Assembly: GCF_001922585.1 (NCBI RefSeq)
Contig: NZ_MRBS01000001.1
Coordinates: 496,001-560,000, forward strand
Origin: Pantoea sp. 1.19
GTDB lineage: Bacteria > Pseudomonadota > Gammaproteobacteria > Enterobacterales > Enterobacteriaceae
Length of the DNA stretch: 64,000 bases
Direction of reading: 5' to 3'
The first letter of the stretch is position 1. Each line of letters begins with the position of its first letter. This document shows, piece by piece, positions 21,160 to 38,201 of the stretch. Under the pieces are notes generated by a model. That model did no database searches and was not told where the DNA came from. It was given only the letters and a program-made list of their open reading frames with translations. Position numbers and translations under genes: made by a program.

Positions 21160-21273
21160 TTAACTCATCCTGTTAGTAAAACAGTGGAACACATCTCTTT
21201 ACACCAGGAGTGTGTGCTTATCAAGGCCGGAGGTACCGCGTATGCCAACGGCAGTTGGATAAGCTGGCGGCAG

Positions 21274-21399: not shown

Positions 21400-21429
21400 A
21401 GCGGTGCGCCGATAACGGGGCCGCGGTGA

Positions 21430-21848
21430 GACCAGGAAAAGGGCCCGGCAGGCGCTGTTACCGTGAGCACGTAGCAGAGAAAAAACCACCGACAAAGCGC
21501 GCTACCGCGGCTGGCGACCCCGCAACGCAAACCGGCTCAGCCCGGCCTTCACGGCGCATACCGCGCGTATTGTTGTGTTTTCACCTTGATAATTGGAAAC
21601 CCGACTACGGTATGACTATTGGGTTAATTAAAAAACGACATTTAATTCATCCAGTTGAGATAACGAAGATTCCTTGTTTGTCTGATTTTCGCGCAAAATG
21701 AGTATCCTGAAAATAGGGTGCTGATTATATTGGCGGGGTTTCATTCGGACCGGGCTGTTCGGATAAACAGACGAGCGGCTGAAAGTGAAGGTGCAGGCCT
21801 GAAAGCCGCTGCAATGCAATAACTCGCATTATTAAAGGGAAATAATAA
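21430..21848 (+). promoter_or_regulatory. leader region of the common-pilus operon
   Basis: No gene is seen. AT content rises from about 21570 up to ecpA. AAAGGGAAAT just before the ecpA ATG is a good ribosome-binding site. No ecpR-type regulator gene is present where E. coli has one. I could not pick a single convincing promoter. Confidence 0.45.
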
Positions 21849-22478: not shown

Positions 22479-22532
22479 TCGTAATGCAGCCAGAGTCTCT
22501 TCTCTGGCTGTCTATGATGATAAGGAAATCAC

Positions 22533-23198
22533 ATGTTTATCAGGCCTGTTATTGCGCTGCTGGTGATCTTTATTTTTCCCACCGTGGCTAACGCTATCAA
22601 TGTCGGAAGCGTTACGACGTTTATCCCTTCAGATAAAGATCTGGTCGGCAAAGAGATAAAAAATGAATCCCCTATGGGCCGCATGATCGGTGTCAAAGTT
22701 GAACGCATCGACACGCCGCTAAGCAGCGGTGTGGTTATTCCGTTTGGAAAAGAAGATGAGCTGCTGCTTTCCCCCTCACAGTTAATGATGCCAGGCAACA
22801 CAAAAAACATCATTAAGTTCTGGTATCAGGGTAAACGTGATGCCAAAGAGCGCTATTATCGAATCACCTTTACCGACGAGCCGATCAGCGACGCGCAAAC
22901 AAAAAACGAAAAAAAATATGCGGAAGCCCAGGCCAGAGCAATCATTAGTACCATTTTAGTCGTTCAGCCCAGAGAAAAGAGTATCGATTTCGGCGTTGTG
23001 TCAGATGGTGTAATAAATAAAGGCAATGCCTCACTGCGGGGAACGGCCATCGGCGAATGCCTGCATGATAAAAAAGAGTGTCGGGAAATATTCTATGTTC
23101 TACCGGGGCGAACATATCATCTCAAACAGGTAAATTTACGCAGCAAAGGGGCTCACCTTAGTCTGTGGGATAACGAAAGGTTTATTCCTGTAAATTAA
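22533..23198 (+). CDS. ecpB: common pilus chaperone EcpB
   Basis: 221-residue periplasmic chaperone. A signal peptide (MFIRPVIALLVIFIFPTVANA) is followed by an immunoglobulin-like fold of the EcpB/EcpE type: SQLMMPGNTKNIIKFWYQGKRDAKERYYRITFTDE is the donor-strand region (split here by family comparison). Two Cys (GECLHDKKECREI) may form a disulfide. It keeps EcpA folded for the usher. TAAGGAAAT precedes the ATG. A second chaperone, EcpE, ends the operon and shares its pattern. Confidence 0.86.
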   Translation: MFIRPVIALLVIFIFPTVANAINVGSVTTFIPSDKDLVGKEIKNESPMGRMIGVKVERIDTPLSSGVVIPFGKEDELLLSPSQLMMPGNTKNIIKFWYQGKRDAKERYYRITFTDEPISDAQTKNEKKYAEAQARAIISTILVVQPREKSIDFGVVSDGVINKGNASLRGTAIGECLHDKKECREIFYVLPGRTYHLKQVNLRSKGAHLSLWDNERFIPVN

Positions 23199-23220
23199 TA
23201 TCCGACAAAAAGGTGATGCA

Positions 23221-25827
23221 GTGAATAAAAACATTACGCTTACCATGCTCACCGCTGTAGTCGCACCGGTGGCTATGGCAGGCAGCGCTGATGTTCATAC
23301 ACCCTCTTATATCATCGATGGCTATCGTTTTCCCCGGGCACTTTATGAGATGTTGCAAAGCGGTATCGCCCTGCCGGTGCTGATAAATAATAAGCCGGTG
23401 ACTGCCGAACACCCGCAGGAACATACCTTTGTACAAATAGGTACGGCCACATTATTTATAACAGATGGAAAGCTGGCTTTAAAGAACGTTAAAATTGCAA
23501 ATGACGATGATAACAAAATTCATCTCAAGGACGCGCTCATTGAGAAAATCAGTGAAAATAAAAATGAAGTATTTGATGAGCAGATGAAACTGCCTATCTC
23601 TAAAGATGCCTGGTTTACGCTGGACGGGAAAAAAATGCAATTGATCCTGAACATTAGTCGGGATAATTTTGCAGCATTAATTACACCGCGGGAATATGAT
23701 ATCGATGAGCCAGCCACGCGTTCGCCAAGTGGCACACTGGCATATGATTTTGGCGGGTACACGACTCACGCATCCCATGGTGAGACGCGAAACTCGGCCT
23801 ATGTCAATTTCAACTCGACCAGTTCAGTTGGGGTCGATCACCTGATCCTGAACGGTTCACTCTATACCGGCAACAGTTTCTCCTCCGATCGGGATGGACG
23901 CATTAATGCTGCACTGATGGAACGGGATTATAAAGGCTTTCGCCTTGCTGGCGGTATGCTGGATAACTGGGGGATGCAGTCGGTGGCCTCCGTCAGTGCG
24001 CTGACCGGCGGTGAAATCTACGGCTTTTCACTCGGTAACGCAGCAAACTCCCGTAAGCGAAACGCGGCGCTCTCACTCTCCCCGGTCGTGGTCTTTTTCC
24101 CCACGGCCGGCGAGGCAAGGATACGCCGCGATGGCAATCTGCTCAGCATCCAGCGCTTTACCGTCGGTAGCCATGAAATCGACACCTCGGTATTGCCGTA
24201 CGGTATCTATTCCGTGGAGGTAGAAGTGGTGAGCGGCGCGCGCACGGTGTCGCGTGAAATATTCCAAATCAATAAGCCTTTTTCTGCCGATATGCCCGAT
24301 TCACTGAAGTGGCAGCTGTGGGGAGGCGCGTATAATCGCGATAGGGTGTACGACTATCGCCATCAAGAGGAGAATAACGCGGACCATCGGCAGGTCAACA
24401 GCGCGACGGATAAAGCGATGATGTCGCTTATTGGAATGTCCGTCGGAAAAAGTCTCGGCGTCGTTGACTGGAGCCTGTCCGGTTACATGCTCAAAAATCG
24501 CATCATCTCTGAGCTCTGGGCATCAACGAACCTCAGCCGCTGGCTATCGATCAATACCCAGGCGATGAGCGCCTCTGACGGCTCATGGCGCGGTAACTAC
24601 GGCGGCACACTGCGGCTGCCTTTTAATATTGGCAACATCTGGTACAACCGCAGCCAGTTGCACAGCGGTCGTTTCCTCTCGTTATATGAAAATAAAGGCA
24701 GCAACTGGGGGATCTCCATTAATCTGCCCTCCATGGGTGCCGCCTCCGGCGGTGTCATTAGCTGGAGTGAGGATCGCGACAGCGTATACGGTTACAAAAG
24801 ACGCCGTTTGAGCTATTCGCAGGGATTGTACGCCGGCCGCTATGGATCCGTGCGCCTGCGTACCGGGATCAGTTACAACAGCAACAGCTATGGCGGGTAT
24901 GGCCGCAACAATCATTTTAACGAACGTGAGCGCTATGTGATGCTCGACTATTCCGTGCCGCTCGGTAATACCGTTTCAATGGGGGTATCCCACTCGAAGG
25001 AGAGCGGGACGGCGCTGAATGTTAATGCCAGCCATGATTTTCAGGGCGATTATTTAAAAAATGCCTCGGCTAATATCTCTAAATCATTCAGCGGCGATAC
25101 CGAGCGTTCGGTGACCGGTGGCGCTACGGTAGGATTCGATACGCCGTATAACAGCAACGCGCTGAGTTATCAGACCGATAATGCCGCCGGCTGGAACAGC
25201 ACCTTAACCAGCCAGGGCTCCGTCGCCTGGGCGGGCACGCACGTCGGTGCCGGGAAAGGTCGTGAGAGTGCCGGGGTGTTAATTGATACCGGGCTGGGCC
25301 ATGGGGAAAGATTAACGCTGGATATTGATGGCAGTAAAAAGCTTCTGACGGGCAACCGAAACTACGTCTCTCTGCCCCCTTACGCAAAATATAAAATGGA
25401 GATCCTCAATAACGAGGATACGCTGGAAAGTTATGACATTAATGAAGGCTCGCGTAAAACGATTACCGTCTATCCGGGTAACGTAGTGTATATGCAGCCG
25501 GAAGTGAAGAAAATCATCACCGTCTTCGGCAGGCTGATGAACAATGACGGTTCTGTGGCGGCCAACCGTGAGATAAAAAATAAAATCGGCCTGGCGAAAA
25601 CGGATGCGAACGGTCGCTTCGTCATCGATATCGATCGCGATGCGCCGCAGCTGAGTTTTGCTAATAACGATGAAGGAGTGTGCAGCGTTGATATTAATGT
25701 CAATACGCAGAATAAAGAAGGGGCCCTGTGGCTGGGTGATGTGGCCTGTGGCCAGCAAAATTATGTCAAACAATCTCCGCACGGCGTGAGGGAAAATGAA
25801 AGTGGAACTGAGAAAAAAGGCTCTTAA
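23221..25827 (+). CDS. ecpC: common pilus outer-membrane usher EcpC
   Basis: 868-residue usher. It starts GTG behind AAAGGTG; residues 1-20 are a signal peptide (AVVAPVAMAG). The N-terminal domain carries YIIDGYRFPRALYEMLQSG as in EcpC. The central part is rich in alternating beta-barrel strands (RLAGGMLDNWGMQSV, YNSNSYGGYGRNNHF). The C-terminal part has GRLMNNDGSVAANREIKNK, a carboxypeptidase-regulatory-like plug or CTD fold. E. coli EcpC is of similar size (about 840). It overlaps ecpD by 32 nt. It assembles and exports the pilus. Confidence 0.9.
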   Translation: MNKNITLTMLTAVVAPVAMAGSADVHTPSYIIDGYRFPRALYEMLQSGIALPVLINNKPVTAEHPQEHTFVQIGTATLFITDGKLALKNVKIANDDDNKIHLKDALIEKISENKNEVFDEQMKLPISKDAWFTLDGKKMQLILNISRDNFAALITPREYDIDEPATRSPSGTLAYDFGGYTTHASHGETRNSAYVNFNSTSSVGVDHLILNGSLYTGNSFSSDRDGRINAALMERDYKGFRLAGGMLDNWGMQSVASVSALTGGEIYGFSLGNAANSRKRNAALSLSPVVVFFPTAGEARIRRDGNLLSIQRFTVGSHEIDTSVLPYGIYSVEVEVVSGARTVSREIFQINKPFSADMPDSLKWQLWGGAYNRDRVYDYRHQEENNADHRQVNSATDKAMMSLIGMSVGKSLGVVDWSLSGYMLKNRIISELWASTNLSRWLSINTQAMSASDGSWRGNYGGTLRLPFNIGNIWYNRSQLHSGRFLSLYENKGSNWGISINLPSMGAASGGVISWSEDRDSVYGYKRRRLSYSQGLYAGRYGSVRLRTGISYNSNSYGGYGRNNHFNERERYVMLDYSVPLGNTVSMGVSHSKESGTALNVNASHDFQGDYLKNASANISKSFSGDTERSVTGGATVGFDTPYNSNALSYQTDNAAGWNSTLTSQGSVAWAGTHVGAGKGRESAGVLIDTGLGHGERLTLDIDGSKKLLTGNRNYVSLPPYAKYKMEILNNEDTLESYDINEGSRKTITVYPGNVVYMQPEVKKIITVFGRLMNNDGSVAANREIKNKIGLAKTDANGRFVIDIDRDAPQLSFANNDEGVCSVDINVNTQNKEGALWLGDVACGQQNYVKQSPHGVRENESGTEKKGS

Positions 25828-27433
25828 CATTCTGTTGATGACCCTTGCCATCAGCGCGAAGGCGGATGAAACGCTGCCGTTTGTGGCGTTTCACAACAGC
25901 GGTGCCACCCTCGGGGCAAACAGCGCGGCTATCTTCAGCCTGAACGAAGTCTATCTAGACAGCGCCCAGCTGGTGGGATCGCTGGAGTATCCGATACTGA
26001 GCAGCAACACGTCGCTCACCGTAGCCACTTATGTTCCAACCTCTGTTAACAATTCTGGCGTTGGCCGGCTCACGGACCCCTTCGTATGGCGCTACGCTAT
26101 CTCAAATTTTTCTGACATCCCTTTTACCGGCAGCTACTGCTCATCGTGCAGCGGCGGATATAAACCCGCGCTGAAAACCTCCTCCTCGCAGATGACGATA
26201 CCCTATAACCCGATTGGCGGACTGTACGGTAAGGTTGGACTGACCCTGAGCAGCCCTTTCTTTAATAAACTGCTGTCGCTGGGCAGCGGTGCCATCGTCA
26301 ACATCAGCACCAGTCCCTATGAAAATGAGCAAAGCGACATCCCGCTCTCTACCCAAAATAATAGCCTGATGAAAGTGGGGGATTTCTATCTCGATAACTC
26401 CGCAAAGTTGGCGTTTCTGATCGATCCGATCACCGGGGAAATTTCTTTAAAAAACAGTACCACGGGGCAGCGCTGTACTGACTATCAATATATCGCGCTG
26501 AAAGGACAGCTGTGTGAGGTAATGAAGTACCGCTATCAGGGGAATTCGGTGACGCCTTACGCCGGCATGCTGTCGATGACGGTGTCTGACGTCAATGACG
26601 CGCTGAATCGTTTTCAGTCTTCCGGGCTCACCATCGCGCTAACGTTTGATGAAAAAAATTGGTATAGCTTATCCAACGCCAGCGTGGGAAACGGCATGAT
26701 ATTTGCCGACAGCTTTATGCAACAGGCGGCAAAAGCTGGCGGAACCGCCAGTTTGAAGATGTTTTTCCCTAACGACTTTATTAAGCAGGTCGCGCTAAGC
26801 GGCCAGGAGTCGGACCTGACGGACATTGCCACCCTCTGCATTAGCAAACCAATGATGACGATCGGGGCGGATTTTTGTTTTCACCCCGGTAACGGGATGA
26901 ACATTGACCCGATGGAGCCCAATATTGAGATAAAACCCGATAATCCCGACTACACGCTCGATCCGAAAGGCTACGGCGCCAGCGGTCAGGGGACGGTGGG
27001 CAGTGCGAGCCCCATTACGATCCCTTATACGATCTATACGATTTCTGAAGACCCGGCGGTTGCCGTCAGCGTCCGCGTGACCGGTCCGTCGCGCGCCTTA
27101 AAGGGTAAAAACTATTGTCTGTTTTCCGGTTCGGGGGCGGCAGCCGGTATTGCTGTGCCTGTGCCTGGCGATGTGCTGATTGGCGCTTCGCGGCAAAAGT
27201 ACGCGCACAACTGCGCGGGAGAATCTTTTCCCGTCGCGGCTCCGGCCACCGCACCGGGGGAGTGGTTAAAAAAGGACAATTTTAATGTAGGGGCCCTGAA
27301 CGTTTGGCAAACTCCGCTGATACTCGAGTTTCCGATGAACGATCCTGTGACGACAAAAACGTACTCCGGCACGTTGTGGGATGGCATCGTCAGCGCGCAG
27401 GGGACGGTGGAGGTCTCCGCCACATGGAATTAA
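25796..27433 (+). CDS. ecpD: common pilus tip adhesin EcpD
   Basis: 545 residues, close to E. coli EcpD (about 547), the polymerised tip adhesin. Its N-terminus (MKVELRKKALNILLMTLAIS, cut after AKA) is a signal peptide. Paired Cys occur in SYCSSCSGGYKPA and near residues 225-240. A Pro/Asp-rich linker (IEIKPDNPDYTLDPKGYG) leads to a C-terminal pilin-like domain ending WDGIVSAQGTVEVSATWN, the subunit part that joins the shaft. It starts inside ecpC and its stop overlaps the ecpE start by 10 nt. Confidence 0.87.
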   Translation: MKVELRKKALNILLMTLAISAKADETLPFVAFHNSGATLGANSAAIFSLNEVYLDSAQLVGSLEYPILSSNTSLTVATYVPTSVNNSGVGRLTDPFVWRYAISNFSDIPFTGSYCSSCSGGYKPALKTSSSQMTIPYNPIGGLYGKVGLTLSSPFFNKLLSLGSGAIVNISTSPYENEQSDIPLSTQNNSLMKVGDFYLDNSAKLAFLIDPITGEISLKNSTTGQRCTDYQYIALKGQLCEVMKYRYQGNSVTPYAGMLSMTVSDVNDALNRFQSSGLTIALTFDEKNWYSLSNASVGNGMIFADSFMQQAAKAGGTASLKMFFPNDFIKQVALSGQESDLTDIATLCISKPMMTIGADFCFHPGNGMNIDPMEPNIEIKPDNPDYTLDPKGYGASGQGTVGSASPITIPYTIYTISEDPAVAVSVRVTGPSRALKGKNYCLFSGSGAAAGIAVPVPGDVLIGASRQKYAHNCAGESFPVAAPATAPGEWLKKDNFNVGALNVWQTPLILEFPMNDPVTTKTYSGTLWDGIVSAQGTVEVSATWN

Positions 27434-28092
27434 GGCTGCCGGGATTACTGCTTACGTTCAGTCTGCTGCTAACCAGTGGAACCTGTAATGCGTTATTTAT
27501 TGAAAATCTCAATATCGATCTGCTTCCCAAAAAAGGCGTAAAGTTCGTCAGCATTGCCAATCGCACTACCGGTGCCAAAGCCTACACCGTCAATGTGGTT
27601 CAAATCAGCACGCCGCGTGCAGAAGGAACTGAAACCGTCATCAATGATGGTTCGCTACTCTACTCACCGCAAAAACTGATTCTGAAATCAGAACAAAGAA
27701 GTGGTTTTAAGTTTTATTATAACGGCAAAAATGATAACAAAGAGAGATACTTCAGGATCACTTTTATTGAAACTCCGCTGCAAACTGATAAAGTAACATT
27801 GTCTCACAAGGAGCTGTATTACGATTATCGGATTATTGTTAAGGCGATCATGATTGTCAGGCCGAAATCTGAGCGGTTCGCGTATCGCTATCAAAATCGA
27901 ACGATTACAAATACGGGTAATACCTATTTTAAATACATGTCGTCTAAGCACTGTCAGTCGGGATATAGCCACTCTACATTTTTACCACCCGGTGCCTCAC
28001 TGTCGCTCAGCGATGAGGAGACGAAAGAAAATCGGGTGATTATTTATAAAAACAGTATATTAACTTTGTCAACGTGCCTGGCAAAGTCGTAA
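27424..28092 (+). CDS. ecpE: common pilus chaperone EcpE
   Basis: 222-residue periplasmic chaperone, second of the operon. ATG 27424 is chosen because the signal peptide MELRLPGLLLTFSLLLTSG starts there and overlaps ecpD's stop by 10 nt; a longer frame from 27304 lies inside ecpD. The core repeats the EcpB pattern (SPQKLILKSEQRSGFKFYY, GKNDNKERYFRITFIET). It probably serves the tip adhesin EcpD. Only 42 nt separate its stop from the first bacteriocin-like peptide gene, with no terminator seen. Confidence 0.84.
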   Translation: MELRLPGLLLTFSLLLTSGTCNALFIENLNIDLLPKKGVKFVSIANRTTGAKAYTVNVVQISTPRAEGTETVINDGSLLYSPQKLILKSEQRSGFKFYYNGKNDNKERYFRITFIETPLQTDKVTLSHKELYYDYRIIVKAIMIVRPKSERFAYRYQNRTITNTGNTYFKYMSSKHCQSGYSHSTFLPPGASLSLSDEETKENRVIIYKNSILTLSTCLAKS

Positions 28093-28134
28093 GGGTAATG
28101 AAATAAGGCACTTTAATTTATAAGGAAATTGACT

Positions 28135-28335
28135 ATGAAATACGTAGATATGGCAGTAGCTGATAAACTCGTTGGCGGCGCGCTTAACCCCATCTCTGGC
28201 CTGGTGAGTGGCATCACTTCCGGTTACCAAACCGGCGCCGGCATCATGGGAATGCTTGGCGGGCTGGTTGGCGGCATTGTCGGCGGCGTCCTTGGCTTTG
28301 TGGGCGGGTTTGTCGGCATGCCGGCAGACAAATAA
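28135..28335 (+). CDS. double-glycine-leader glycine-zipper peptide 1 (bacteriocin-like)
   Basis: 66-residue peptide. Leader MKYVDMAVADKLVGG ends in a double glycine, the cleavage site for C39 peptidases. The predicted mature part is 51 residues, starts ALNPISG and is dominated by GxxxG spacing (GMLGGLVGGIVGGVLGFVGG), ending MPADK. TAAGGAAAT lies 6 nt before the ATG. The same leader pattern, M-x-x-V-x-M-x-V-A-x-K-x-x-G-G, occurs in the second peptide. With the downstream C39 exporter this is a strong class II/two-peptide bacteriocin or Cdz-like glycine-zipper toxin candidate. It lies 42 nt after ecpE and may be read through from the pilus operon. Confidence 0.82.
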   Translation: MKYVDMAVADKLVGGALNPISGLVSGITSGYQTGAGIMGMLGGLVGGIVGGVLGFVGGFVGMPADK

Positions 28336-28530
28336 CACCGGCAGTTTTGCTATCAGTCGGTCATGCTAATCGCAGACGGCTGAGTTTCGTAGCCCGATGA
28401 TTTAATGTCGGATAAAGTAAGATATACCCCTGAAACGTTGCAAGGGGGCCTACGCTTTTTAGGGCATCATGGGGCTATGATACGTTAATTATACACACCT
28501 GAAAGGTGTACTCGAATATAAGGACATATC
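28336..28530 (+). other. spacer between the two peptide genes
   Basis: 195 bp without a supported gene. A small hairpin ACACCT/AGGTGT (28495-28509) lies just before the second peptide's ribosome-binding site (AAGGAC). A 27-codon frame at 28405-28488 lacks a ribosome-binding site. It may hold a promoter for the second peptide, but no clear boxes were found. Confidence 0.5.
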
Positions 28531-28716
28531 ATGAACGTTGTAAAAATGAAAGTCGCAGAAAAAGTCATTGGCGGTTGGGATCCCTTTGGCCAGGCTATCG
28601 CCGGTGCACAAAAGGCCTATGAAACCGGCAATAAACTGTTAGGCCCACTGGGCGGTACCATTGGTGGGATCTTCGGACTGGTCGGCGGTTTTATCAACGG
28701 CTTCCTCTCAGCCTGA
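28531..28716 (+). CDS. double-glycine-leader glycine-zipper peptide 2 (bacteriocin-like)
   Basis: 61-residue peptide. Leader MNVVKMKVAEKVIGG is the same length as that of peptide 1 and shares V4, M6, V8-A9, K11 and the double glycine. The mature part (46 residues) starts WDPFGQAIAGAQKAYETG and then has a zipper stretch GPLGGTIGGIFGLVGGFING. Peptide 1 has a comparable Q-(T/A)-G motif (GYQTGAG) and the same layout, so the two probably act as a pair. AAGGAC precedes the ATG. A perfect hairpin follows, then the exporter gene. Killing activity is inferred from gene context and composition. Confidence 0.82.
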   Translation: MNVVKMKVAEKVIGGWDPFGQAIAGAQKAYETGNKLLGPLGGTIGGIFGLVGGFINGFLSA

Positions 28717-28735
28717 ATGAAATAATAAATTAATT

Positions 28736-28763
28736 CAATGACCCGATTTCGGGTCATTGTTTC
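28736..28763 (+). terminator. hairpin (attenuator-like) between peptide and exporter genes
   Basis: CAATGACCCG (28736-28745) pairs perfectly with CGGGTCATTG (28750-28759) over a 4-nt loop, followed by TTTC. With so few T it is probably a leaky terminator or mRNA stabiliser, giving more peptide than exporter transcript. Confidence 0.6.
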
Positions 28764-28780
28764 AACATCGCCAGGATAAC

Positions 28781-30889
28781 ATGTTTTCTATATTTCAATC
28801 GCGTTCTTCATCGCCAACCCCCATGATTCGGCAGTACGAGCACACAGAATGTGGCCTGGCGTGTCTGGCCATGATTTTGGGTCACTATGGTCACGATACG
28901 TCTATCAGTCAGCTACGCCGCGAATACGAGGTGTCCGAAGACGCCGGTACGTCGATGGCGACGTTATCCAACTGGGCGGCCGAAAAGGGCCTGGAGGGGC
29001 GGATCCTTCAGGGCGAAGTGACAGAAATAAAAAAAACGCATTTACCGGTCATCGCTTTCTGGCGTAATAACCATTTCGTGGTGATCGTGCGGGCCGATGA
29101 GCGCGGGATGGTGATTCACGATCCGGCCAGCGGTATCCGACGCTACAAATATCGCGAGGCAAAAGGGCTTTTTTCGGGATATATCCTCGAACTTCGACCG
29201 CAAGCGACGTTTACCAAGCGAGAAGCTGATGCGGTATTTACGCTCGGGCAGCTGGCAAACAACATTTCAAAATTAGCTCAGCGTCAGGTGGTGTTATTAA
29301 CCTTTTCGATTTTTACGCTGCTGATCATGCTTATTTCTCCCTCATATATCCAGCTGGTGTTGGATGAGGCTATTGCCAGAAATGATTTTGATCTGGTAGT
29401 GTTGTTAACCTGCGCGTTTGCCATTGTCTTCATCTTTGATGTGGTGAACCGTTTTCTGAAGCAAATTCTCGAAATCTGTATGCGGAACTTTGCCTACGAT
29501 GAGCTCAGTCAGTCGATTCGGCGCTACTTACTGCGCGCCCAGAACAGCTGGTTTCGTACCCGCCCGGTGGGCATCATTTTGGCGATTGAAAAATCGCTAC
29601 ACAGCTGCGCAGAGTTCATCAGTAATGGCTACGTCGCGATGTTATTCTCTCTGCTAATCAGCTTTTTTAGTTTGATATTTATGCTGTTTTACAGCGTACA
29701 CATCGCCGTCGTCACTCTGTTACTGATGTCCATTTTTTTTATTATTCGTTTTTCTCTGATTGTCCCCTACCAGCGCGCAGTCGATAACTCAATCAATAAA
29801 ACGGCTGAGTATGAGTCTCTGCTGGTAGAAACGCAAAAAGGGATCGTAACCTTAAAAGCGAATAATATGCTGCACAATATCAACGGCGTGATTGATAAGG
29901 CGATGAGGAAACACATCGGCGCGCTAATGAAAAAAGAGCGCCTGCTGGCGAGATTCGATGCGGCCTCGGTGGTGGTCATTAATCTTGAACAGCTTGCCGT
30001 GGTCTGTATGGGGGCGTGGGCGATCCTGCACGGCGAAATGACCATTGGTATGCTGATCGCTTATATCAGTTACAAGCGATATTTCTCTGATGCGATGATC
30101 GACTTTGCACATAAATATCTGGAAAAGAATGCACTCAAAGGCCCACTGGATCGTATTGGTGATCTGGTAAGCTATCCTGCAGACGAAGACGTTTTTGGCG
30201 AGCGCAGTGCGGAACCGCCCAGCTCGCTGCTGTTTGATAACGTCACGTTTGCCTGGCCGGGTAAGCAGCCGGTGTTGAAAAACATCTCGCTGACGTTTTC
30301 TCCGGAACAAGAAACGGTGATCATAGGGCAAAGTGGATCCGGTAAGACCACGCTACTGCGGTTAGTGAGTGGCATTTTGCAGCCGGTCAGCGGGGCGATT
30401 ATTTTTAATGGATTTCCCCTTGCCTCCTACCGACTCAGAGAATTAAGGACCATCATCCGCATTGTGCACGCCGACGATCAGCTTTTTAGCGGCACCCTGC
30501 TGGAAAACATCTCCGGTTTCTCGCCGGAACCGTCGCTGGAAGAGGCGATTGCGGCGTGCCGGGTTGCCGAAATCCATGAGGTGATTCGCGCGTTGCCCCA
30601 CGGCTACGACACGCCGTTTATCCCCGGTAATCCACTCTTTTCAGCGGGGGAGGTGCAGCGGTTGGTCCTGGCGAGAGCGCTCTATGCCAGACCCGGCTGG
30701 TTACTGTGTGACGAAGTGACGGCAAACCTGGATAAAACAACCGCCGCCGCGCTGTTGTCGAATCTTCGGCAGCTCAATATTGGGCTGATCTTTGTGACCC
30801 ACTCTCCGGAAATGGTTTACCAGTCAGGACAGCTTATCACGCTGGAAAACGGCGTCGCGACGCGGCACGCTGCCGGGGAGCAGCCGTGA
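28781..30889 (+). CDS. C39-peptidase ABC exporter (CvaB/PCAT type)
   Basis: 702 residues. Residues about 15-135 form a C39 peptidase: Gln18, Cys24 (HTECGLACLA), His98 (NNHFVV) and Asp114 (IHDPASG) supply the active site. Six hydrophobic segments follow (about 165-440). The C-terminal ATPase has Walker A IIGQSGSGKTT, signature FSAGEVQRL and Walker B LLCDE. The signature lacks the usual LSGGQ but keeps S-x-G. ATG 28781 with AGGA upstream is preferred over TTG 28757. It should cut the double-glycine leaders of the two upstream peptides and export them with the HlyD-type partner. Its end overlaps the next gene as TGATG. Confidence 0.92.
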   Translation: MFSIFQSRSSSPTPMIRQYEHTECGLACLAMILGHYGHDTSISQLRREYEVSEDAGTSMATLSNWAAEKGLEGRILQGEVTEIKKTHLPVIAFWRNNHFVVIVRADERGMVIHDPASGIRRYKYREAKGLFSGYILELRPQATFTKREADAVFTLGQLANNISKLAQRQVVLLTFSIFTLLIMLISPSYIQLVLDEAIARNDFDLVVLLTCAFAIVFIFDVVNRFLKQILEICMRNFAYDELSQSIRRYLLRAQNSWFRTRPVGIILAIEKSLHSCAEFISNGYVAMLFSLLISFFSLIFMLFYSVHIAVVTLLLMSIFFIIRFSLIVPYQRAVDNSINKTAEYESLLVETQKGIVTLKANNMLHNINGVIDKAMRKHIGALMKKERLLARFDAASVVVINLEQLAVVCMGAWAILHGEMTIGMLIAYISYKRYFSDAMIDFAHKYLEKNALKGPLDRIGDLVSYPADEDVFGERSAEPPSSLLFDNVTFAWPGKQPVLKNISLTFSPEQETVIIGQSGSGKTTLLRLVSGILQPVSGAIIFNGFPLASYRLRELRTIIRIVHADDQLFSGTLLENISGFSPEPSLEEAIAACRVAEIHEVIRALPHGYDTPFIPGNPLFSAGEVQRLVLARALYARPGWLLCDEVTANLDKTTAAALLSNLRQLNIGLIFVTHSPEMVYQSGQLITLENGVATRHAAGEQP

Positions 30890-31623
30890 TGCGCGACCGG
30901 TTCTTCCACTGGTTAGCCGCTCGATCGCAGCACAGTTTTGCCGCCGAGCGTTTCCACCACAATTATCTGCAGCTGACGCACGCCAGCGGGGAGTCCACTC
31001 CCGGGGAGCTGTTCGTACAGAATATGGCGCAGCGATTATGCCTGTCGTTCCGCGTGCATCCGCTGCCGGCGCAGCGCTGGCCGCAATTTCTCAGCGCGGA
31101 CAACCGACAGACGGTCCAACGCTGGGCCGACGAGCACGCGCTGTTTCGTCACCGAACCCTGATGCCGCTGCTGCGCTGGAACGGCCTCGAAACCGTTCTG
31201 GCCACGCTTTTCCAGCTGGCTCCCGCCTGCTGTGACATTGTTCTGCTGACGGAAGATCCCCTCTACCAGCGGCTCTTTGCCCTGAAACCGCCGGCCGGAC
31301 GCTCCTTTTTTTTGCATCGTCCGCTGCTGGTGATCCTTTTTCTTGACGAGCGGCTGCCGCAGTCGCCCCTATTTCCTCTCAACATCAATGGTAACCGCTG
31401 CATGCTGACGCAGGTCTCTGACCGGGTGATACAGCGGCTCGGGCTGCAGGTGCAGACGCTGATACCGCATCATCTCTTTTCACCGCACGCCTTCCGCATT
31501 ACCGGGCTATCGCAGACCCCGGCCAGCTGGCGAGAGGCGGCGGTAGAAAATTTTCACGCTCTGCTTCAGTCACCGGCGTCATGGGGATGCTGGGATGACC
31601 TTGCGGTACTTTTTCATGGATGA
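30889..31623 (+). CDS. uncharacterised protein inside the peptide-export operon
   Basis: I do not recognise this 244-residue protein. It has no signal peptide and no clear membrane segment, and is rich in Leu, Arg, His and Pro. Visible stretches include FHHNYLQLTHASGESTPGEL near residue 22, LLTEDPLYQRLF and SFFLHRPLLVILFLDERLP near 135-155. It is coupled to the exporter (TGATG) and overlaps the HlyD gene by 29 nt, so its function belongs with export, immunity or peptide handling. Immunity proteins are usually small and hydrophobic, which this is not, so a cytoplasmic accessory or assembly factor seems at least as likely. Confidence 0.65.
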   Translation: MRDRFFHWLAARSQHSFAAERFHHNYLQLTHASGESTPGELFVQNMAQRLCLSFRVHPLPAQRWPQFLSADNRQTVQRWADEHALFRHRTLMPLLRWNGLETVLATLFQLAPACCDIVLLTEDPLYQRLFALKPPAGRSFFLHRPLLVILFLDERLPQSPLFPLNINGNRCMLTQVSDRVIQRLGLQVQTLIPHHLFSPHAFRITGLSQTPASWREAAVENFHALLQSPASWGCWDDLAVLFHG

Positions 31624-32881
31624 AAAAATGATAACGATCAGAGATAAAAAAAGACATTCGCCAGGGGTGGGCAAACGCGCCTATGCCAAAATATACGATA
31701 TCAATTTACCCGGCCTGCGCGCCTCGCTGCTCCTGTTTTCAGCCTTCTTTCTGTGCCTTTTTATTTACAGTTGTATTGTCCCCTATTCTGAAACCACCCT
31801 GGCGCAGGGCATGGTGATCACCGCCAAAGGCGATATCCAGGTTCGCGCGAAGGTCTCCGGCACCATAGTGGCGCTGCCGATAAGAGAAGGGGAGTACGTG
31901 AAGGCCAACCAGATACTCTTCACGCTCTCCCAGGACTACGGCGGGAAAGAGGGGTCGGTGATGGAGTATGAGTCCCAGCACTATGTTGATGAGGCAAAAC
32001 GCAATACGGCCAGGGTAAACAGCATGACGACCTCGATTGCCAACCTGAAAAGCAATCAGGTCAGCCAGCTGGCGGCGATCGACGCGCAAATAGCGGCGGC
32101 TAAAGTGAAGGTGATCAAAGCCAGGGAGTTGGTCAACAACAGCGAGGAGACCTTCCGCTCTTTCAAAAAAATGGTCTCGCAGGGCTATGTATCAAAGCTG
32201 GAGATTACGCAAAGAGAAAATGAAGTGTTGAATGCGCAGCTAAACCTGAAGTTGGAAGAGTCGGCCATTTTACAACTGCAAAGTAACCGAACCGCCATGA
32301 TGGATAATACCCAGTATCAAATTGACGACCTGTCGACGCAAATGCTGTACCTGAAGAACCGCAACAGCGAAATTGAACGAATCATGGCGACGCAGGGAAA
32401 TAAATCGTTGTCGATGCTGGCCCCCACCGATGGCTACGTTGTCGCGATTAATTTCCCACCGGGTAAGGCGGTCAGGCAGGATGATGAAGTGGTGGTGGTC
32501 ATCCGGCACGATACCCGCAGCCCTCTGGAAGGGTATCTCTACATTCCCTCTACCGGGGCGGGGCGGATCAAGCCGGGCGATAAAGTCAATGTCCGCTTTG
32601 ACGCCTGGCCGGTGGATAAGTACGGCAGTCTGACCTCCACGCTGGAGGCGTTTTACCCCGTGAACATCGATCCGCGCTCCGCCCTGATTCCGCTTGAACA
32701 AGGGCAAACCTACTACCTGGCGCGCGTCAAGCTGCCCGCGTCCTTCACCGACCCGACGCACCGGCGGCGGCTGATTTTGGGCGGGATGAAGATCTATGCG
32801 GACATACACGTTGACTCGCGCCCGCTGATTATCTTACTGATCGCGCCGCTGGAGCGCGCCCGACAGCGCTTCCTTACCTGA
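31595..32881 (+). CDS. HlyD/CvaA-type membrane fusion protein
   Basis: 428 residues. One N-terminal transmembrane segment (LLLFSAFFLCLFIYSCIV, about residues 46-64), then a split lipoyl half-motif (VRAKVSGTIVALPIREGEYVKANQILF), a long coiled coil (about 120-260), the second lipoyl half (LSMLAPTDGYVVAINFPPGKAV) and a beta-barrel domain. The C-terminus ends in a hydrophobic RPLIILLIAPLERARQRF as in CvaA-like proteins. An alternative start ATG lies at 31616. It should link the C39 exporter to an outer-membrane TolC, which is not in this window. Last gene of the bacteriocin-like operon. Confidence 0.88.
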   Translation: MTLRYFFMDEKMITIRDKKRHSPGVGKRAYAKIYDINLPGLRASLLLFSAFFLCLFIYSCIVPYSETTLAQGMVITAKGDIQVRAKVSGTIVALPIREGEYVKANQILFTLSQDYGGKEGSVMEYESQHYVDEAKRNTARVNSMTTSIANLKSNQVSQLAAIDAQIAAAKVKVIKARELVNNSEETFRSFKKMVSQGYVSKLEITQRENEVLNAQLNLKLEESAILQLQSNRTAMMDNTQYQIDDLSTQMLYLKNRNSEIERIMATQGNKSLSMLAPTDGYVVAINFPPGKAVRQDDEVVVVIRHDTRSPLEGYLYIPSTGAGRIKPGDKVNVRFDAWPVDKYGSLTSTLEAFYPVNIDPRSALIPLEQGQTYYLARVKLPASFTDPTHRRRLILGGMKIYADIHVDSRPLIILLIAPLERARQRFLT

Positions 32882-33032
32882 CCGGCAGAGGCGGGAACCC
32901 CGGTGGCCACCACGCGTCTGTCCGCCGCGCGCTTCCCGGCCGCGGCGATAGCCATCGGGTGCAGCCTCGCGGAGGTGGCCGGCCGGCTCGCCAAGGGCGC
33001 GCGCCGCGCAAGCGTTCCCGCCCCGGCGTGGA

Positions 33033-33497
33033 TTAATTTTTCTTACAGCTGTAGGCAATCACCGGATCGTTATAGAAAAAGTATTGCCCGCTTCGCTGAT
33101 AGACGATACGCATAAACATACTTTTCCCACTCTCAACATAAAAGTCCGACAGGTTTTTTTTTATCGTCGGATTATCCACCGTATCCGACGAGGTTCGGAT
33201 ACTGCTTTCCGACGTTAGCATATAGTACTGATTTTCTCTTTTATAATTGAACAACACCCTGCGGGAGATGTTTTTAGTTTCACCATCCGCAAGGTGCATT
33301 TTGCCATTGATACATAAAAGGCCGCGTCGCTTGCCAAAGGAGTAGCTGAGAAATAAATCCATTTTTGCGTCCTGACTATGCTGTACATAATAGGCGGTGC
33401 AGCTAAACTTTTCCCCTTGGCTGAGCGAGTAGAGGTATCCTGCAGCGATAAGCAGTAACAGGATAAGCATGACCAGGGTGGCCCTTATTTTAAACAC
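33033..33497 (-). CDS. FidL-like membrane-anchored protein
   Basis: 154 residues. One N-terminal membrane anchor (TLVMLILLLLIAAGYLYSL), then a periplasmic domain with SCTAYYVQHSQD near 32-43, GLLCINGKMHL, and the end DPVIAYSCKKN. This matches the enterobacterial FidL-like family, usually found next to a membrane-anchored winged-helix regulator and often near fimbrial genes. It directly follows the regulator (1 nt apart), so they form an operon. The function is not established; a sensory partner of the regulator is a reasonable guess. It is convergent with the HlyD gene. Confidence 0.72.
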   Translation of the reverse strand: MFKIRATLVMLILLLLIAAGYLYSLSQGEKFSCTAYYVQHSQDAKMDLFLSYSFGKRRGLLCINGKMHLADGETKNISRRVLFNYKRENQYYMLTSESSIRTSSDTVDNPTIKKNLSDFYVESGKSMFMRIVYQRSGQYFFYNDPVIAYSCKKN

Positions 33498-33498
33498 G

Positions 33499-34338
33499 TT
33501 ATTCTTCCTCCTTGAAATAATCTGTGATGCATATGCCTTTTATGCCCGCCTGCGTGCTGCACCTTAATACGGAAACCTCAGCCAGCTGTGGAAAGGCATC
33601 CACATAGATCCACGGATACTCATGACATGCCTGAGTGAAATTGTTTGCAAAATCCAGCGATCGGCTCTGTAGCGTCTTATCTGTCTGGTTAGGCGAGAGA
33701 AATATTTTACAGGTCTTTTCCTGACTAAAGGGAATGTACTGTTGCAAATCGTTAGGCGTGGTGTAGTACTGTACGGAAACCACCGCGATAAGGAGAATTG
33801 CCATCAGCAGGCTGAAGCAAACGATGCGGGTAACCTTGCGTTTTTTTTGGGCAGTCTGCGGCTGGCTATCGGTGAATGCATCGGATGGATGCAGCCGGCT
33901 TGCCGCTCTTTTGGCCCGGCTGTCCGCGGGATCATCAACACGCGGTGCGGTGTCACTTGTCGCTGTCGGCCCGGGGTTGGGAGCGTTACTTTCATCATTG
34001 ACCTGCTGAATGCTACAGGACTCTGACAGCGTAAGCCCGATTCTGGGGATGGTCATGATGATCTCTTCTTCCAGTCCCGCCTCCTTCAATCCTTTTCTTA
34101 AAATAGAAATATTTTGATAAAAGGTGTTTGGTGAAACCATCACGCCATTTTTTTTCCACACTTCTTCCATAAAATCGTGTTGGCTAACCACCGTACCGTG
34201 ACGTTGAATTAGCAGGAGAAAACAGCGGCTGGCTGGCGAATTGAGAATGATTTTATCATCGGGGTGAGCATGAGGATTTAACATATTAGCAACCGGATAA
34301 AACTCAATCTTACCATTTATCAGATAGTGCTCTTGCAT
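33499..34338 (-). CDS. membrane-anchored winged-helix regulator (ToxR/CadC-like)
   Basis: 279 residues. An OmpR/CadC-type winged helix occupies residues about 1-105 (ASRCFLLLIQRHGTVVSQHD, SPNTFYQNISILRKGLKEAG, IPRIGLTLS). A charged linker follows, then one transmembrane helix (IVCFSLLMAILLIAVVSV, about 175-193) and a periplasmic domain with four Cys (KTCKIFLSP, QACHEYPW, LRCSTQAGIKGICITDY). This is a one-component membrane regulator. With FidL it probably controls the nearby pilus genes and perhaps the bacteriocin-like operon; that is inferred from position. Confidence 0.78.
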   Translation of the reverse strand: MQEHYLINGKIEFYPVANMLNPHAHPDDKIILNSPASRCFLLLIQRHGTVVSQHDFMEEVWKKNGVMVSPNTFYQNISILRKGLKEAGLEEEIIMTIPRIGLTLSESCSIQQVNDESNAPNPGPTATSDTAPRVDDPADSRAKRAASRLHPSDAFTDSQPQTAQKKRKVTRIVCFSLLMAILLIAVVSVQYYTTPNDLQQYIPFSQEKTCKIFLSPNQTDKTLQSRSLDFANNFTQACHEYPWIYVDAFPQLAEVSVLRCSTQAGIKGICITDYFKEEE

Positions 34339-35220
34339 AGATATCCCTATTACTTCTCAGCAATGTTAATCATCTTTTATTGATGAGTGCAGAGTTCAGA
34401 TTCCTTTTCTCACTCTGTTGATCAAGGAGGTGATGTTACTGCCAGGTTTTTTAATTTGCAAACGATTAAGTGTGAAGTCTCCGGGGGTATTAGTTAGTTT
34501 TCCTTAAGCTCCATACTCTCTTTTCTTATTTTTTTCTTATCTATGGCTATTATTTAAAGATAAAGTTTTTGTTTAAGTGCTTTCCGTGCCTGGCGCATTT
34601 TTTTCTTGTATTGCTCTCCATTGTTTTACTGTTGTTTTTTTTGTTATTTGTGGCGGGTAACCTGTTTTTTTAACATTTATCCATGAGCCGACTATTTTCA
34701 TTTATTTAACATTCCATTCACTGTCGATTATGCGTCCCGTGCCGTATTTTTCCGTATCCGGACTGATCAAATTTAATATGATAAAATATTATTTTTATCC
34801 TCTGCCTGTCCGTATAAATGCCTGTAGCTACCGGATTTCCTTCTGCCGGCGACGTTGTTGGCTACCACGCGCAGCAGCGGAGCTGAAGGATCCCATCGCG
34901 CTTCATCCCGCAACCCCGATCGGCCCGAAGGCGTGCAGTCTCTCCAGCTGGCGCCACTCGCAACGCGCCGATCGCCGGCGGCGGCATGACGAATGTCCGG
35001 TATGCGCCAGCGCCACTCCCGCTGTCGGGGATGATCGCTGCGCCGCTCGCGCAGGCGTCGGCCAGCGGAGCGCGGTGCATTACGCCAGCGCTCAGCGCGC
35101 TTCTCCGTCCTGGTGCATCGGGCGCTCGAGTCCGCCGGGCTGAAGATCGCGGCGAGCGAGCGGGCTTGCATCAGCAGACGACTTTCCCTAAGCTTGCAAA
35201 AAGCATGCTACTGCTTGCCA
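34339..35220. other. 882-bp gap, AT-rich then GC-rich, no supported gene
   Basis: 34339-34850 is very AT-rich with long T-runs and probably contains the promoter of the winged-helix regulator. 34860-35200 is GC-rich, with overlapping open frames on both strands and no recognisable protein; it could be a decayed gene. The first frames here start without ribosome-binding sites. Confidence 0.55.
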
Positions 35221-35221
35221 A

Positions 35222-35301
35222 TGACTCGGGGTGCCCTTCTTTGTGAAGGCTGAGAAAGACCCGTATTACCTGATCTGGATAATGCCAGCGTAGGGAAGTC
35301 A
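35222..35301 (+). ncRNA. TPP riboswitch (THI element)
   Basis: The conserved cores of the thiamine pyrophosphate aptamer are present in order: GACTCGGGGTGCC at the start, CTGAGA in the pyrimidine-sensing arm, then ACCCGTATTACCTGATCTGG and GCGTAGGGAAGTC. TGACT (35222-35226) pairs with AGTCA (35297-35301) as P1. It lies 45 nt before thiM, so thiamine pyrophosphate should shut off thiMD, probably by masking the ribosome-binding site GAGGAGAG. Confidence 0.95.
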
Positions 35302-35346
35302 GATGCCGTCTCGCATCGCCTTCTTGATCGCCGGTGAGGAGAGACG

Positions 35347-36138
35347 ATGACCCCTTCTGACCCGCTTGCCGACGGCGATGCTGCCGCCGCGCTCACGCTG
35401 TTTACCCAACGCGCGCCGCTGATCCACTGCCTGACTAACGAGGTGGTGCAGGCCTTGACGGCTAACGTGCTGCTGGCGCTCGGCGCATCGCCGGCAATGG
35501 TGGTGGCGCCGCAGGAGGTCGCCCAGTTCAGCGCGGTGGCTGACGCGCTGCTGATTAACGTCGGCACGCTGACCGCCGACCGCCGTGACAGTATGGCCGC
35601 CGCGGTGCGCGCCGCCCGCGCGCAGGGCACCCCGTGGGTGCTCGATCCGGTAGCGGCAGGCGCCCTGACGTTTCGCACCGATTTTTGTCGACAGCTGCTG
35701 CGCGAGGCGCCGGCGGCGATCCGCGGCAACGCGTCGGAAATACTGGCGCTGGCCGGAGAGGGCGCTGGCGGTCGCGGCGTTGACAGTCGGCATGATGCCG
35801 CCGACGCGCTGGCGGCGGCTCGCGACCTGGCGCGCCGCGTCAACACGGTGGTGGCGGTGACCGGTGAGGTGGATTATGTCACCGACGGCGAACGGCTGCT
35901 GCGCGTGCCGGGCGGATCGCCCCTGATGGCCCGGGTCACCGGCACCGGCTGCGCGCTGTCAGCGGTGGTCGCCGGTTTTTGCGCGCTGCCGGGCGACCGA
36001 CTGATCCTCGTGGCCAGCGCCTGCCGGGTGATGGCCGGAGCCGGTCAGCGCGCCGCCGCCGCCGCGCGCGGGCCGGGCAGCTTTCTGCCCGGGTTGGTGG
36101 ATGCGCTGTGGCAGGCGGCGCAGGCGGCCCAGGCATGA
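35347..36138 (+). CDS. thiM: hydroxyethylthiazole kinase ThiM
   Basis: 263 residues, normal for ThiM. It phosphorylates 4-methyl-5-(2-hydroxyethyl)thiazole for thiamine salvage. Family motifs: [65 protein letters not shown] and the C-terminal ATP/Mg site [21 protein letters not shown] lies before the ATG. It is behind the TPP riboswitch and overlaps thiD by ATGA. Confidence 0.95.
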
Positions 36139-36935
36139 GCCCGGTGAACGCGTTGACCATCGCCGGCACCGATCCCAGCGGCGGGGCCGGTATTCAGGCC
36201 GACTTAAAGACGTTTTCCGCGCTGGGCGTTTACGCTACCAGCGTGGTCACCGCGCTGGTGGCGCAAAATACCCGCGGCGTGCAGTCGGTTTGTCGCGTAG
36301 CCCCGGCGTTCGTGCTCGCCCAGCTCGATTCGGTGCTAAGCGACGTGCGTATTGACAGCGTAAAAATCGGCATGCTGGCCGAGGCGGATATTGCGCTGGC
36401 GGTGGCGGAGCGGCTGCAGCAGGCGGCGCCGCGCTGGCGGGTGCTTGATACGGTAATGCTGGCGAAGAGCGGCGATGCGCTGTTGTCGCCATCGGCGGTG
36501 GCGGTGCTGCGCGATCGCCTGCTGCCGCTGGCCTCGATGGTGACGCCAAACTTGCCGGAAGCGGCGGCGCTGCTGGGCTGCGCACCGGCGGTCAATGAGC
36601 GGGAGATGCGCGCCCAGGGGCGCGCGCTGCTGGCGATGGGGGCGCAGGCGGTACTGATGAAAGGCGGCCACCTGCGTGACGATGAGAGCCCGGACTGGCT
36701 GCTGACCGCGGACGACGAGCGGCGTTTTACCGCCCCGCGGGTGGCCACGCGCCATACGCACGGCACGGGCTGTTCGCTGTCCTCGGCGCTGGCGGCGCTG
36801 CGCCCGCAGCGTGCGGACTGGGCGGAGACGGTGCGCGATGCCAAAGCCTGGCTGCAGGGGGCGCTGATACACGCCGATTCGCTGCGGGTTGGTAGCGGAC
36901 AGGGCCCGGTACACCACTTCTGGCGCTGGTGGTAA
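36135..36935 (+). CDS. thiD: bifunctional HMP kinase/HMP-P kinase ThiD
   Basis: 266 residues. It phosphorylates hydroxymethylpyrimidine to HMP-P and HMP-PP for thiamine synthesis. Motifs: [20 protein letters not shown] at the start, [34 protein letters not shown], and the catalytic anion hole [14 protein letters not shown] near residue 212. Translationally coupled to thiM (ATGA) and under the same TPP riboswitch. Confidence 0.95.
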
Positions 36936-37013
36936 CCCGCCGCCGGTGCCGTCAGGCCAGCAGACCGGCGCCGCGCCGCGCGGGCCGCGCCAGACGGCGC
37001 CCGGCGCGGCACA

Positions 37014-37916
37014 TCAGGCAATCAGCGGGCAGTCCGGCGGCAGCCGGCAGCGCAGGGCGTCCGGCAGAATCTCCATGCGAAAGTGGGTGCCACTCAGCGG
37101 CTCGCCGTCGAGGTTAAAGGTCATCTCGTGCGGGGCGGTGATCTCCAGCCACGGCAGCGAGGCGCGGACGATATTGGGGTTGTCATCATCGCCGCCAAAC
37201 AGCGAGTTGAGCAGCGTGGGCAGCAGCTCCTGCGCGGTAACGATACTCACCTCCAGCTGGCCATCATCGATCAGCGCATACGGACACAGACGCTGGCCGC
37301 CGCCCGCCTGGCGACCATTCCCAATCCCGATCACCAGCGCGTCGCCCTGCCAGTGAAAGCCGGGGCCGCGCAGCTCACAGCTGTCAGCCTTGAGCTGATC
37401 CATCCGCAGCAGGCCGTGCACGAAATAGGAGACACCGCCGAGCGCGGACTTCAGTTTTGCCGGCGTTTCGGTAGTAATGCGCGTACCGAAGCCGCCGGTC
37501 GCCATGTTGATGAAGTAGTGGTGATCATTCACCTTCGCCAGGTCCACCGGATACGCTTTGCCCTGAATGGCCAGCCGCAGGGCGTTCCCCATTTCCTGCG
37601 GGATGCCGACGCTGGTGGCGAAATCGTTGGCGGTCCCCAGCGGCAGAATGCCCAGCACCGGGCGTCGGGCGCTGTCGACACCGGCCAGCGCGCTGGCCAG
37701 CTCGTTGATGGTGCCGTCGCCGCCGCCGGCCACGACGGTACTGGCGCCGAGGGCGATCGCTTCCCCAAGGTAGCGGCCGGCATCGCCGTGCTCCCAGGTG
37801 ACCCGCACCTCAATGGGGAATCCCTCCTCGCGCAGGGCGTGTACGGCTTCGCGCAGCGCTTCGTGACCCGCACCTTTACCGTTAAGGATCAGCATGGTAA
37901 TTGCCTGATTGTCCAT
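37014..37916 (-). CDS. yegS: lipid kinase YegS
   Basis: 300-residue diacylglycerol-kinase-catalytic-fold lipid kinase. The nucleotide motif [17 protein letters not shown] lies near residues 62-78 and [11 protein letters not shown] at about 95. The C-terminal beta-sandwich contains NLDGEPLSG with the expected Asp-Gly-Glu. E. coli YegS (299 residues) phosphorylates phosphatidylglycerol in vitro. It is convergent with thiD across 78 bp and monocistronic. Confidence 0.93.
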
Positions 37917-38201
37917 ATCAACTCTCTGTAGCTTCGGTGACCAGAATTGCCTGCCTGCGGCGCGCGGCCGTCAGGTTCAATCGGCAGGGATACAGGATTT
38001 TATAGCACATAAGCGGGACCAGCAGGACGGCGGCGACAAAACTCGGACAAAGAAACGCCCGCGCGGGGGAGCCGGGCGGGCTAATGAGGTGGTTCCTGTC
38101 GCAGATGCTGTTGATTATTGCTGATTGGAAGCCCGCGTATCATAACCAGATTGCTGCGGGCAGACCGTGATCCGATGCTAAAAAACGTTAACCTGTACAG
38201 G

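Follow-up and report, generated by a model that had tools for sequence, protein, structure and literature searches.

We analysed a stretch of 64,000 nucleotides from Pantoea sp. 1.19 (NZ_MRBS01000001.1, positions 496,001–560,000 of the forward strand), hereafter the window, to which all coordinates below refer. Ten genes at 21849–32881, all on the plus strand, make up a unit in which five genes for a pilus of the Escherichia coli common pilus (Ecp) type are followed by a module for two small peptides and their export. A preliminary description of this DNA let the system begin at 28135, as a bacteriocin-like locus. The unit was found to start instead with the pilus operon at 21849–28092. A plain two-peptide bacteriocin locus from 28135 was ruled out as the unit because the five pilus genes precede it in 19/19 loci.

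The pilus operon opens with an EcpA-type major pilin (21849–22478; Pfam MatB 122.6 bits, cut-off 27), an EcpB-type pilus chaperone (22533–23198; Pfam EcpB_C 59.6 bits, cut-off 26.1) and an EcpC/CS1-type usher (23221–25827; Pfam CooC_C and TcfC). These three, found in this order and all over the Pfam cut-offs, mark an Ecp/CS1-type pilus. A diverged EcpD-like tip adhesin (25796–27433) and a second pilus chaperone at the EcpE position (27424–28092) complete the operon; the EcpB_C match of the latter is weak and below the cut-off. The NCBIfam equivalog cut-offs for the E. coli common pilus were missed by the pilin (EcpA, 162.1 bits against 200) and by the adhesin (EcpD, 79.2 bits, E 2e-22, against 900).

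Peptide 1 (28135–28335, 66 residues) and peptide 2 (28531–28716, 61 residues) each carry a 15-residue leader that ends in two glycines (GG). Processing is predicted to leave glycine-zipper cores of 51 residues (starting ALNPIS) and 46 residues (starting WDPFGQ). The two peptides are 43% identical. Their leaders match as first described, with M1, V4, M6, V8-A9, K11 and G14-G15 in common. The mature parts had also been called rich in GxxxG, and this held against shuffles of each peptide's own core. The core of peptide 1 has 11 GxxxG motifs against a shuffle mean of 4.5 (0/5000 shuffles reached 11), and that of peptide 2 has 6 against 2.7 (P 0.016). The two genes are 195 bases apart (28336–28530) and the gap is strongly structured, whereas 22–32 bases separate them in the 16 other loci measured, all with an intact exporter gene. 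The gap has no further copy in the genome and no Rfam match was found across 21000–35000.

A hairpin with a 10-bp stem, resembling an attenuator or terminator, is predicted on the plus strand at 28736–28759, between peptide 2 and the exporter. The exporter (28781–30889) is an ATP-binding cassette (ABC) protein with a C39 peptidase domain. Peptidase_C39, ABC_membrane and ABC_tran all lie far above the Pfam cut-off, and Walker A, signature and Walker B motifs are present. The peptidase residues Cys24, His98 and Asp114, reported before as intact, were confirmed together with Gln18. ComA-type exporters were among the PDB matches. Two genes follow: one for a protein without Pfam match at E ≤ 1 (30889–31623), here called the orphan protein, and one for a membrane fusion protein (31616–32881; frame also open from the ATG at 31595), whose earlier assignment to the HlyD type is borne out by HlyD_D23 and HlyD_3 above cut-off. 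Export of the peptides by this exporter and adaptor, with the leaders as the signal, is very likely.

Conservation of the ten-gene block

The same ten genes, in the same order and on one strand, occur in 19/19 loci found and are uninterrupted in 16. These linked loci are the window, G027, 14 genomes of genus g144 and three plasmid records. From the likeness of the loci to Enterobacter hormaechei and Enterobacter mori records, we infer that genus g144 is Enterobacter. What the DNA shows directly is which genes the block has, their constant order and conserved linkage, the complete exporter motifs and the hairpin that follows peptide 2.

Twelve window proteins were compared by tblastn with seven fetched loci, and all ten genes were found in five (G027, G144 and plasmid records NZ_OX147917, NZ_CP077309 and NZ_OX147903). 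Identities to the window were 54–58% for the pilin, 48–49% for the usher, 41–42% for the adhesin, 51–53% for the HlyD-type protein and 29–31% for the orphan protein; the second chaperone is 45–48% identical in linked loci. The peptides have counterparts of 54–67% identity, in the same order, beside exporters of 62–65% identity, so the peptide pair is more than a chance find. An alignment of ten peptides gave the common core pattern P-x6-G-x4-Y-x2-G-x4-G-x2-GG-x2-GG-x2-G-x3-GF. Thirteen further g144 loci have the same ten genes; in one of them, L122, the adhesin gene is broken and the core pattern deviates at the Tyr.

Spacing is tight. In the 16 loci measured outside the window, 64–68 bases separate the peptide genes from the exporter gene, which overlaps the orphan gene by 4 bases, with 6 bases from there to the HlyD-type gene. 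The flanks of the block differ between lineages. The orphan protein was found in 1/369 genomes of the class (the window's own), 14/61 genomes of genus g144, 1/1 of the genus of G027 and 1/2 of the window's own genus. With 14 of 61 genomes positive, the block appears patchy in genus g144.

Two of the plasmid loci, L041 (NZ_OX147917) and L043 (NZ_OX147903), lie on conjugative IncFII plasmids of Enterobacter mori. The name blaIMI-2 appears in the names of both plasmids and, for L041, in the gene table. Both appear to carry a damaged exporter gene, which in one is split in two frames and in the other has its annotated start past the catalytic Cys codon. The peptide and orphan genes are open. The third plasmid locus, L042 (NZ_CP077309), is listed as part of a 606 kb non-mobilizable plasmid. 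It may be a piece of chromosome, since its downstream genes match up to 11 other g144 loci, several of them on chromosome-sized contigs.

Linkage to one pilus clade

A peptide profile (E ≤ 0.001) matched 3 of 392 genomes of the family, all with the full block. The order-wide search matched 6/375 genomes, four of them weakly (E 0.0007–0.0045). The weak matches were rejected: L132 has no GG peptide on inspection, and the other three were judged by their open frames of 404–511 residues alone.

At E ≤ 1e-60, the usher matched 68 places spread over 61 genomes. Linked ushers scored 905 and 918 bits (50–51% identity), and the best unlinked usher scored 502 bits (35%); the highest unlinked identity, 39%, is a partial match. 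Among 29 plasmid records, the three linked ushers had 49.0% identity and the other 26 at most 33.3%. In an usher tree of 26 rows, the six linked rows formed one clade (100/100); for this tree, as for the exporter tree below, the program warned of long branches meeting.

For comparison with ordinary Ecp operons, the best 20 of the 65 unlinked usher places were used, one of them a stretch of only 12.3 kb at a contig end. Pilin, chaperone, usher and adhesin were present in 20/20 and a second chaperone at its own place in 17/20. Peptide, orphan protein or HlyD-type protein was found at E ≤ 1e-4 in 0/20. Four of the 20 had a partial exporter match (191–208 codons, 25–30% identity), too short for a whole exporter. 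The window genome itself has a second, ordinary Ecp-type operon without peptides (L100; G000 C12 534001–554000).

Relatives of the exporter

The next-closest exporters, in G060 and G046, are 47–49% identical to that of the window and stand with an HlyD-type gene (34%). Neither a pilus nor the orphan protein was found at these two loci at a credible score. Small open reading frames (ORFs) with a similar 15-residue GG leader lie near these exporters, at L039:887–1030 and at L040:11129–11266 and 12341–12541. The likeness of the leaders was judged by eye, and one leader begins at an internal Met. Their cores are short and contain one to several Cys, so that by eye the cargo of the sister exporters looks bacteriocin-like.

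A tree of 33 exporters placed both sister loci with the linked ones in a single clade (100/100), with its inner order open. Because the sister exporters of this clade have no pilus, this line of exporters may predate the link to the pilus or extend beyond it. A scan of genome contigs gave three exporter relatives of 22–26% identity, and a scan of viral contigs gave none. In a phage search, 18 records were obtained, with a best exporter identity of 28%. A DNA search with 28100–31630 over 20,395 E. coli records gave no match.

Predicted fold of the orphan protein

The preliminary description had listed the orphan gene as an extra unknown gene. The protein is not featureless, as the model of a relative resembles PatA and LpxM. 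At E ≤ 10, Pfam gave a single match in one of 16 family members (E 0.29), and a PDB profile search gave one match (E 0.53). The AlphaFold2 model of the window protein was poor (predicted local distance difference test score, pLDDT, 49.2), too low for use. The relative in L038 was modelled with pLDDT 72.8 and a predicted template modelling score of 0.69. With this model, the 14 best PDB matches in Foldseek were PatA (12) and LpxM (2), at E 1.2e-6 to 1.2e-3. VIA gave Z 11.1–11.4 against PatA (root-mean-square deviation 4.0–4.1 over 206–211 residues) and Z 10.2 against LpxM (4.4–5.5 over 219–228 residues). The next-best chain was RNase J, with Z 5.6. No BFVD match was found at E ≤ 0.001, and hhalign gave no significant profile alignment with LpxL. 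The fold is carried over to the window protein on its 30% identity to the modelled relative alone.

PatA and LpxM are acyltransferases of the LPLAT fold, whose catalytic motif is HX4(D/E). This pattern occurs in 12/16 sequences of the orphan family, at residue 15, 34, 46 or 76, and at no position common to all. It is never at the expected place, which reads [RQ]-W-x-G and was located from the succession of secondary-structure elements rather than by residue alignment. Three LpxL-family proteins of the same genome have HX4(D/E) at residue 132, 150 or 140. We regard the orphan protein as probably a non-catalytic member of the LPLAT fold.

The orphan protein is the fastest-changing of the ten in genus g144, with a mean identity of 85.4% and a ratio of nonsynonymous to synonymous change (dN/dS) of 0.16. 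Over 14 loci its divergence tracks that of the HlyD-type protein (r 0.84) more closely than that of the exporter (r 0.54).

Expression signals and neighbouring genes

The G+C-rich hairpin between peptide 2 and the exporter is found in 17/17 loci folded, which are the window and 16 others; L041 and L043 were left out of the folding. In the 16 others a T-rich stretch follows the hairpin; the window has only a short run of T there, and a consensus scan lists its site on the minus strand only. Two further hairpins lie 5′ of peptide 1 in the 16 others and are absent from the window.

Downstream of the block, on the minus strand, the window has a gene for a membrane-bound winged-helix regulator like CadC/ToxR (33499–34338; Pfam Trans_reg_C above cut-off) and one for its single-span partner (33033–33497). 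A similar pair, in which the regulator has one hydrophobic span, lies upstream of the pilus in 16/18 loci outside the window. The window partner is 20% identical to that of L042 (E 4e-4 for that pair) and 22% to that of L098. Since relatives of the window regulator occur in 8/20 ordinary Ecp stretches, we assign the pair to the pilus. The partner is read as regulatory because weak relatives stand beside ordinary Ecp operons (L098, L090).

G+C content per kilobase is 43–58% in 21000–35000 and 59–71% in the measured flanks (17000–21000 and 35000–38000), as expected for an acquired island. In an empty-site comparison with the congener G068, the right flank (genes read as thiM/thiD) was present. 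The left-flank genes tested were not on the same 20 kb stretch of G068, and no insertion point was demonstrated. Further upstream, at 10996–17863, lie ORFs that by eye resemble condensation and adenylation domains of nonribosomal peptide synthetases, apparently in two frames that meet at ∼13.4–13.7 kb. Beyond them are ORFs named by eye as like GMC oxidoreductase, thioesterase and acyl-CoA dehydrogenase.

Possible function of the peptides

The reading that we prefer, tentatively and aware that it may well be wrong, is that the block joins an Ecp-type pilus to a surface weapon of two exported zipper peptides, like the contact-dependent glycine-zipper (Cdz) toxins. All ten genes would share a transcript, on which the hairpin would let peptide transcripts outnumber exporter transcripts. 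The exporter, the HlyD-type adaptor and presumably TolC would cut the two 15-residue leaders and deliver the resulting cores (51 and 46 residues) to the cell exterior. By analogy with Cdz, the peptides would be retained on the producer surface, and the pair would insert in the membrane of a neighbouring cell that the pilus holds in place. The PatA/LpxM-fold protein, apparently without the acyltransferase motif, would partner the exporter at the inner membrane, either helping to load it or protecting the producer.

In favour of this reading stand the constant gene order of the linked loci and their single usher clade, the 20 ordinary Ecp operons without peptides, orphan protein or HlyD-type protein, and the family-wide profile matches, all of which fall in genomes with the full block. 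The peptides also fit most of the Cdz-like definitions by eye, and fimbrial adhesion genes are noted near many Cdz-like regions (PMC5380434). Further points are the intact peptidase, ABC and HlyD domains, the hairpin after peptide 2, the bacteriocin-like look of the cargo near the sister exporters, and purifying selection on the peptides in genus g144.

Several results weigh against this preferred reading. The peptides were nowhere credibly found apart from the pilus. Both window cores have a net charge of 0 (0 or −1 in L037 and L038), and peptide 2 is missing the charged or polar tail of Cdz-like toxins. Against Pfam Bacteriocin_IIc (PF10439, cut-off 27.1), window peptide 1 scored 13.8 bits and the L038 peptides 17.4 and 12.7; window peptide 2 had no match at E ≤ 1. 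The peptides are also conserved. In genus g144 their mean identities of 97.5% and 98.5% are the highest of the ten proteins, with dN/dS of 0.045 for peptide 1 and 0.027 for peptide 2 (15 loci; 14 for the adhesin, with L122 dropped; pairs without synonymous change excluded). The HlyD-type protein (0.038) lies below peptide 1 in dN/dS, so it is by amino-acid identity, and by peptide 2, that the peptides rank as most conserved. This is the opposite of what is reported for Cdz-like systems, among which similarity is highest in the secretion parts and low in the toxins (PMC5380434); CdzC and CdzD gave no BLAST hits there.

The search for an immunity gene likewise tells somewhat against this reading. 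Hydropathy of the block revealed no multi-span candidate. ATG-started ORFs of at least 50 residues, taken from as far as 4 kb upstream and 4.5 kb downstream of the block in the window and its 18 counterparts, were clustered at BLAST E ≤ 1e-8. In the largest clusters, which were those examined, no immunity candidate common to the lineages was found, though a small or diverged immunity gene could escape this clustering. None of the downstream clusters examined had a member from the window or L037. The single-span partner of the regulator was weighed as a candidate too, by comparison with ordinary Ecp loci, and set aside as regulatory. An immunity protein is described both for Cdz (CdzI, with three predicted spans; PMC5380434) and for class II microcins (PMC10233263); the former also notes that immunity genes are hard to recognise.

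The failure to recognise an immunity gene of the usual kind and the conservation of the peptides both tell against an ordinary bacteriocin. Together with the constant link to the pilus, they also favour a non-toxic partner of the pilus. Such peptides would aggregate at the outer membrane or on the fibre and anchor or bundle the Ecp-type pilus, or glue cells together. This is a serious possibility that ranks close behind the preferred reading, although we are inclined to doubt it. The linkage to a single pilus clade fits it, as do the zero net charge of the window cores and the finding that the peptides are more conserved in genus g144 than pilin, adhesin and exporter. However, all of the 20 best-scoring ordinary Ecp operons do without the peptides, and the closest other exporters stand with small GG ORFs and no pilus. 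In a partial survey of the literature we found no precedent for a pilus operon that also encodes the export of GG peptides.

It is possible, but rather unlikely, that the block encodes a pilus fed by two pathways, which would need the C39 line to supply the peptides, as integral and non-toxic partners, to its base or shaft with the help of a repurposed, non-catalytic protein of acyltransferase fold. The partial literature survey showed no pilus of this type either.

It is improbable that the peptides form a diffusible microcin of two components, or a bacteriocin of class IIb type, and share a transcript with the pilus by happenstance. This reading would account for the C39 exporter with its HlyD-type partner, the two related GxxxG-rich peptides and the leader length of 15, which is that of most class II microcins in PMC10233263. 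However, no adjacent immunity gene was recognised, the cores are shorter than those of class II microcins, and the link to the pilus has been kept over a divergence of about 50% in the usher.

GG leaders and C39 exporters serve peptide pheromones too, and ComA-type proteins are among the exporter's structural matches. With a membrane-bound regulator pair at the locus, the peptides could in principle be exported signals that control the pilus. We consider this very improbable, since the same type of regulator stands beside ordinary Ecp operons without peptides, family matches gave no histidine kinase among the ten genes, and the zipper cores look membrane-seeking. That a pilus operon and a bacteriocin locus unrelated to it merely lie side by side by chance is close to refuted: although both kinds of locus are often island-borne and the G+C content of the block is below its surroundings, the gene order and strand in 19/19 loci, the short gaps and the lineage-specific flanks speak against it.

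If the peptides kill, grip (the pilus) and charge (the zipper peptides) would be encoded as one weapon, and the printed idea that adhesion genes aid delivery of Cdz-like toxins would become directly testable. If they do not, the pilus would have an export route of a second kind, and the practice of calling bacteriocins solely from GG leaders and glycine zippers would have to be reconsidered. Either way, the model gives a first clue to the structure of an orphan family that is linked with a C39 exporter.

Comparison with known systems

The preliminary description likened the layout to Cdz. The likeness stands for two GG zipper peptides beside a type I exporter and adaptor; the window peptides, however, lie in the middle of a ten-gene unit and are conserved. 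According to PMC5380434, Cdz of Caulobacter crescentus (CdzA–D and CdzI) comprises two glycine-zipper proteins with GG leaders, of 86 and 84 residues, and an ABC exporter with adaptor, in a cluster without a TolC gene. Both are retained on the surface of the producing cell and kill on contact. Cdz-like toxins are defined there by a length of 60–151 residues, a leader ending GG (GG/GA/GS), glycine zippers and a short charged or polar tail. Fimbrial adhesion genes are noted there near many Cdz-like regions, and Erwinia sp. is named among the hosts. Applied by eye, the leader and zipper-core definitions fit both window peptides, which are 66 and 61 residues long and have an ABC exporter of type I and an HlyD-type adaptor next to them. 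The window differs from Cdz in its pilus genes, which stand ahead of the peptide genes in one operon-like unit, and in the predicted LPLAT-fold protein between exporter and adaptor. The three-span immunity gene of Cdz has no counterpart found at the linked loci. The window locus may already be in the table of Cdz-like clusters in PMC5380434.

Class II microcins share with the window the 15-residue GG leader, the C39 ABC exporter and the HlyD-type adaptor. The leader had first been thought unlike theirs, but its length is that of eight of ten microcins in PMC10233263, where we took leader length as the difference between the table values read as precursor and mature length. Mature microcins have 60–90 residues in that source, against 51 and 46 for the window cores. 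The window also differs in having two zipper peptides, a pilus operon and no recognised adjacent immunity gene; the ten genes encode no small protein besides the two peptides.

In E. coli, the Ecp genes run pilin, chaperone, usher, adhesin and second chaperone. EcpABCDE thus has the gene order of the window operon and shares its MatB, EcpB_C and CooC_C domains. Ordinary Ecp ushers are 28–39% identical to that of the window and fall outside its clade. The window operon also continues into two peptide genes and an exporter.

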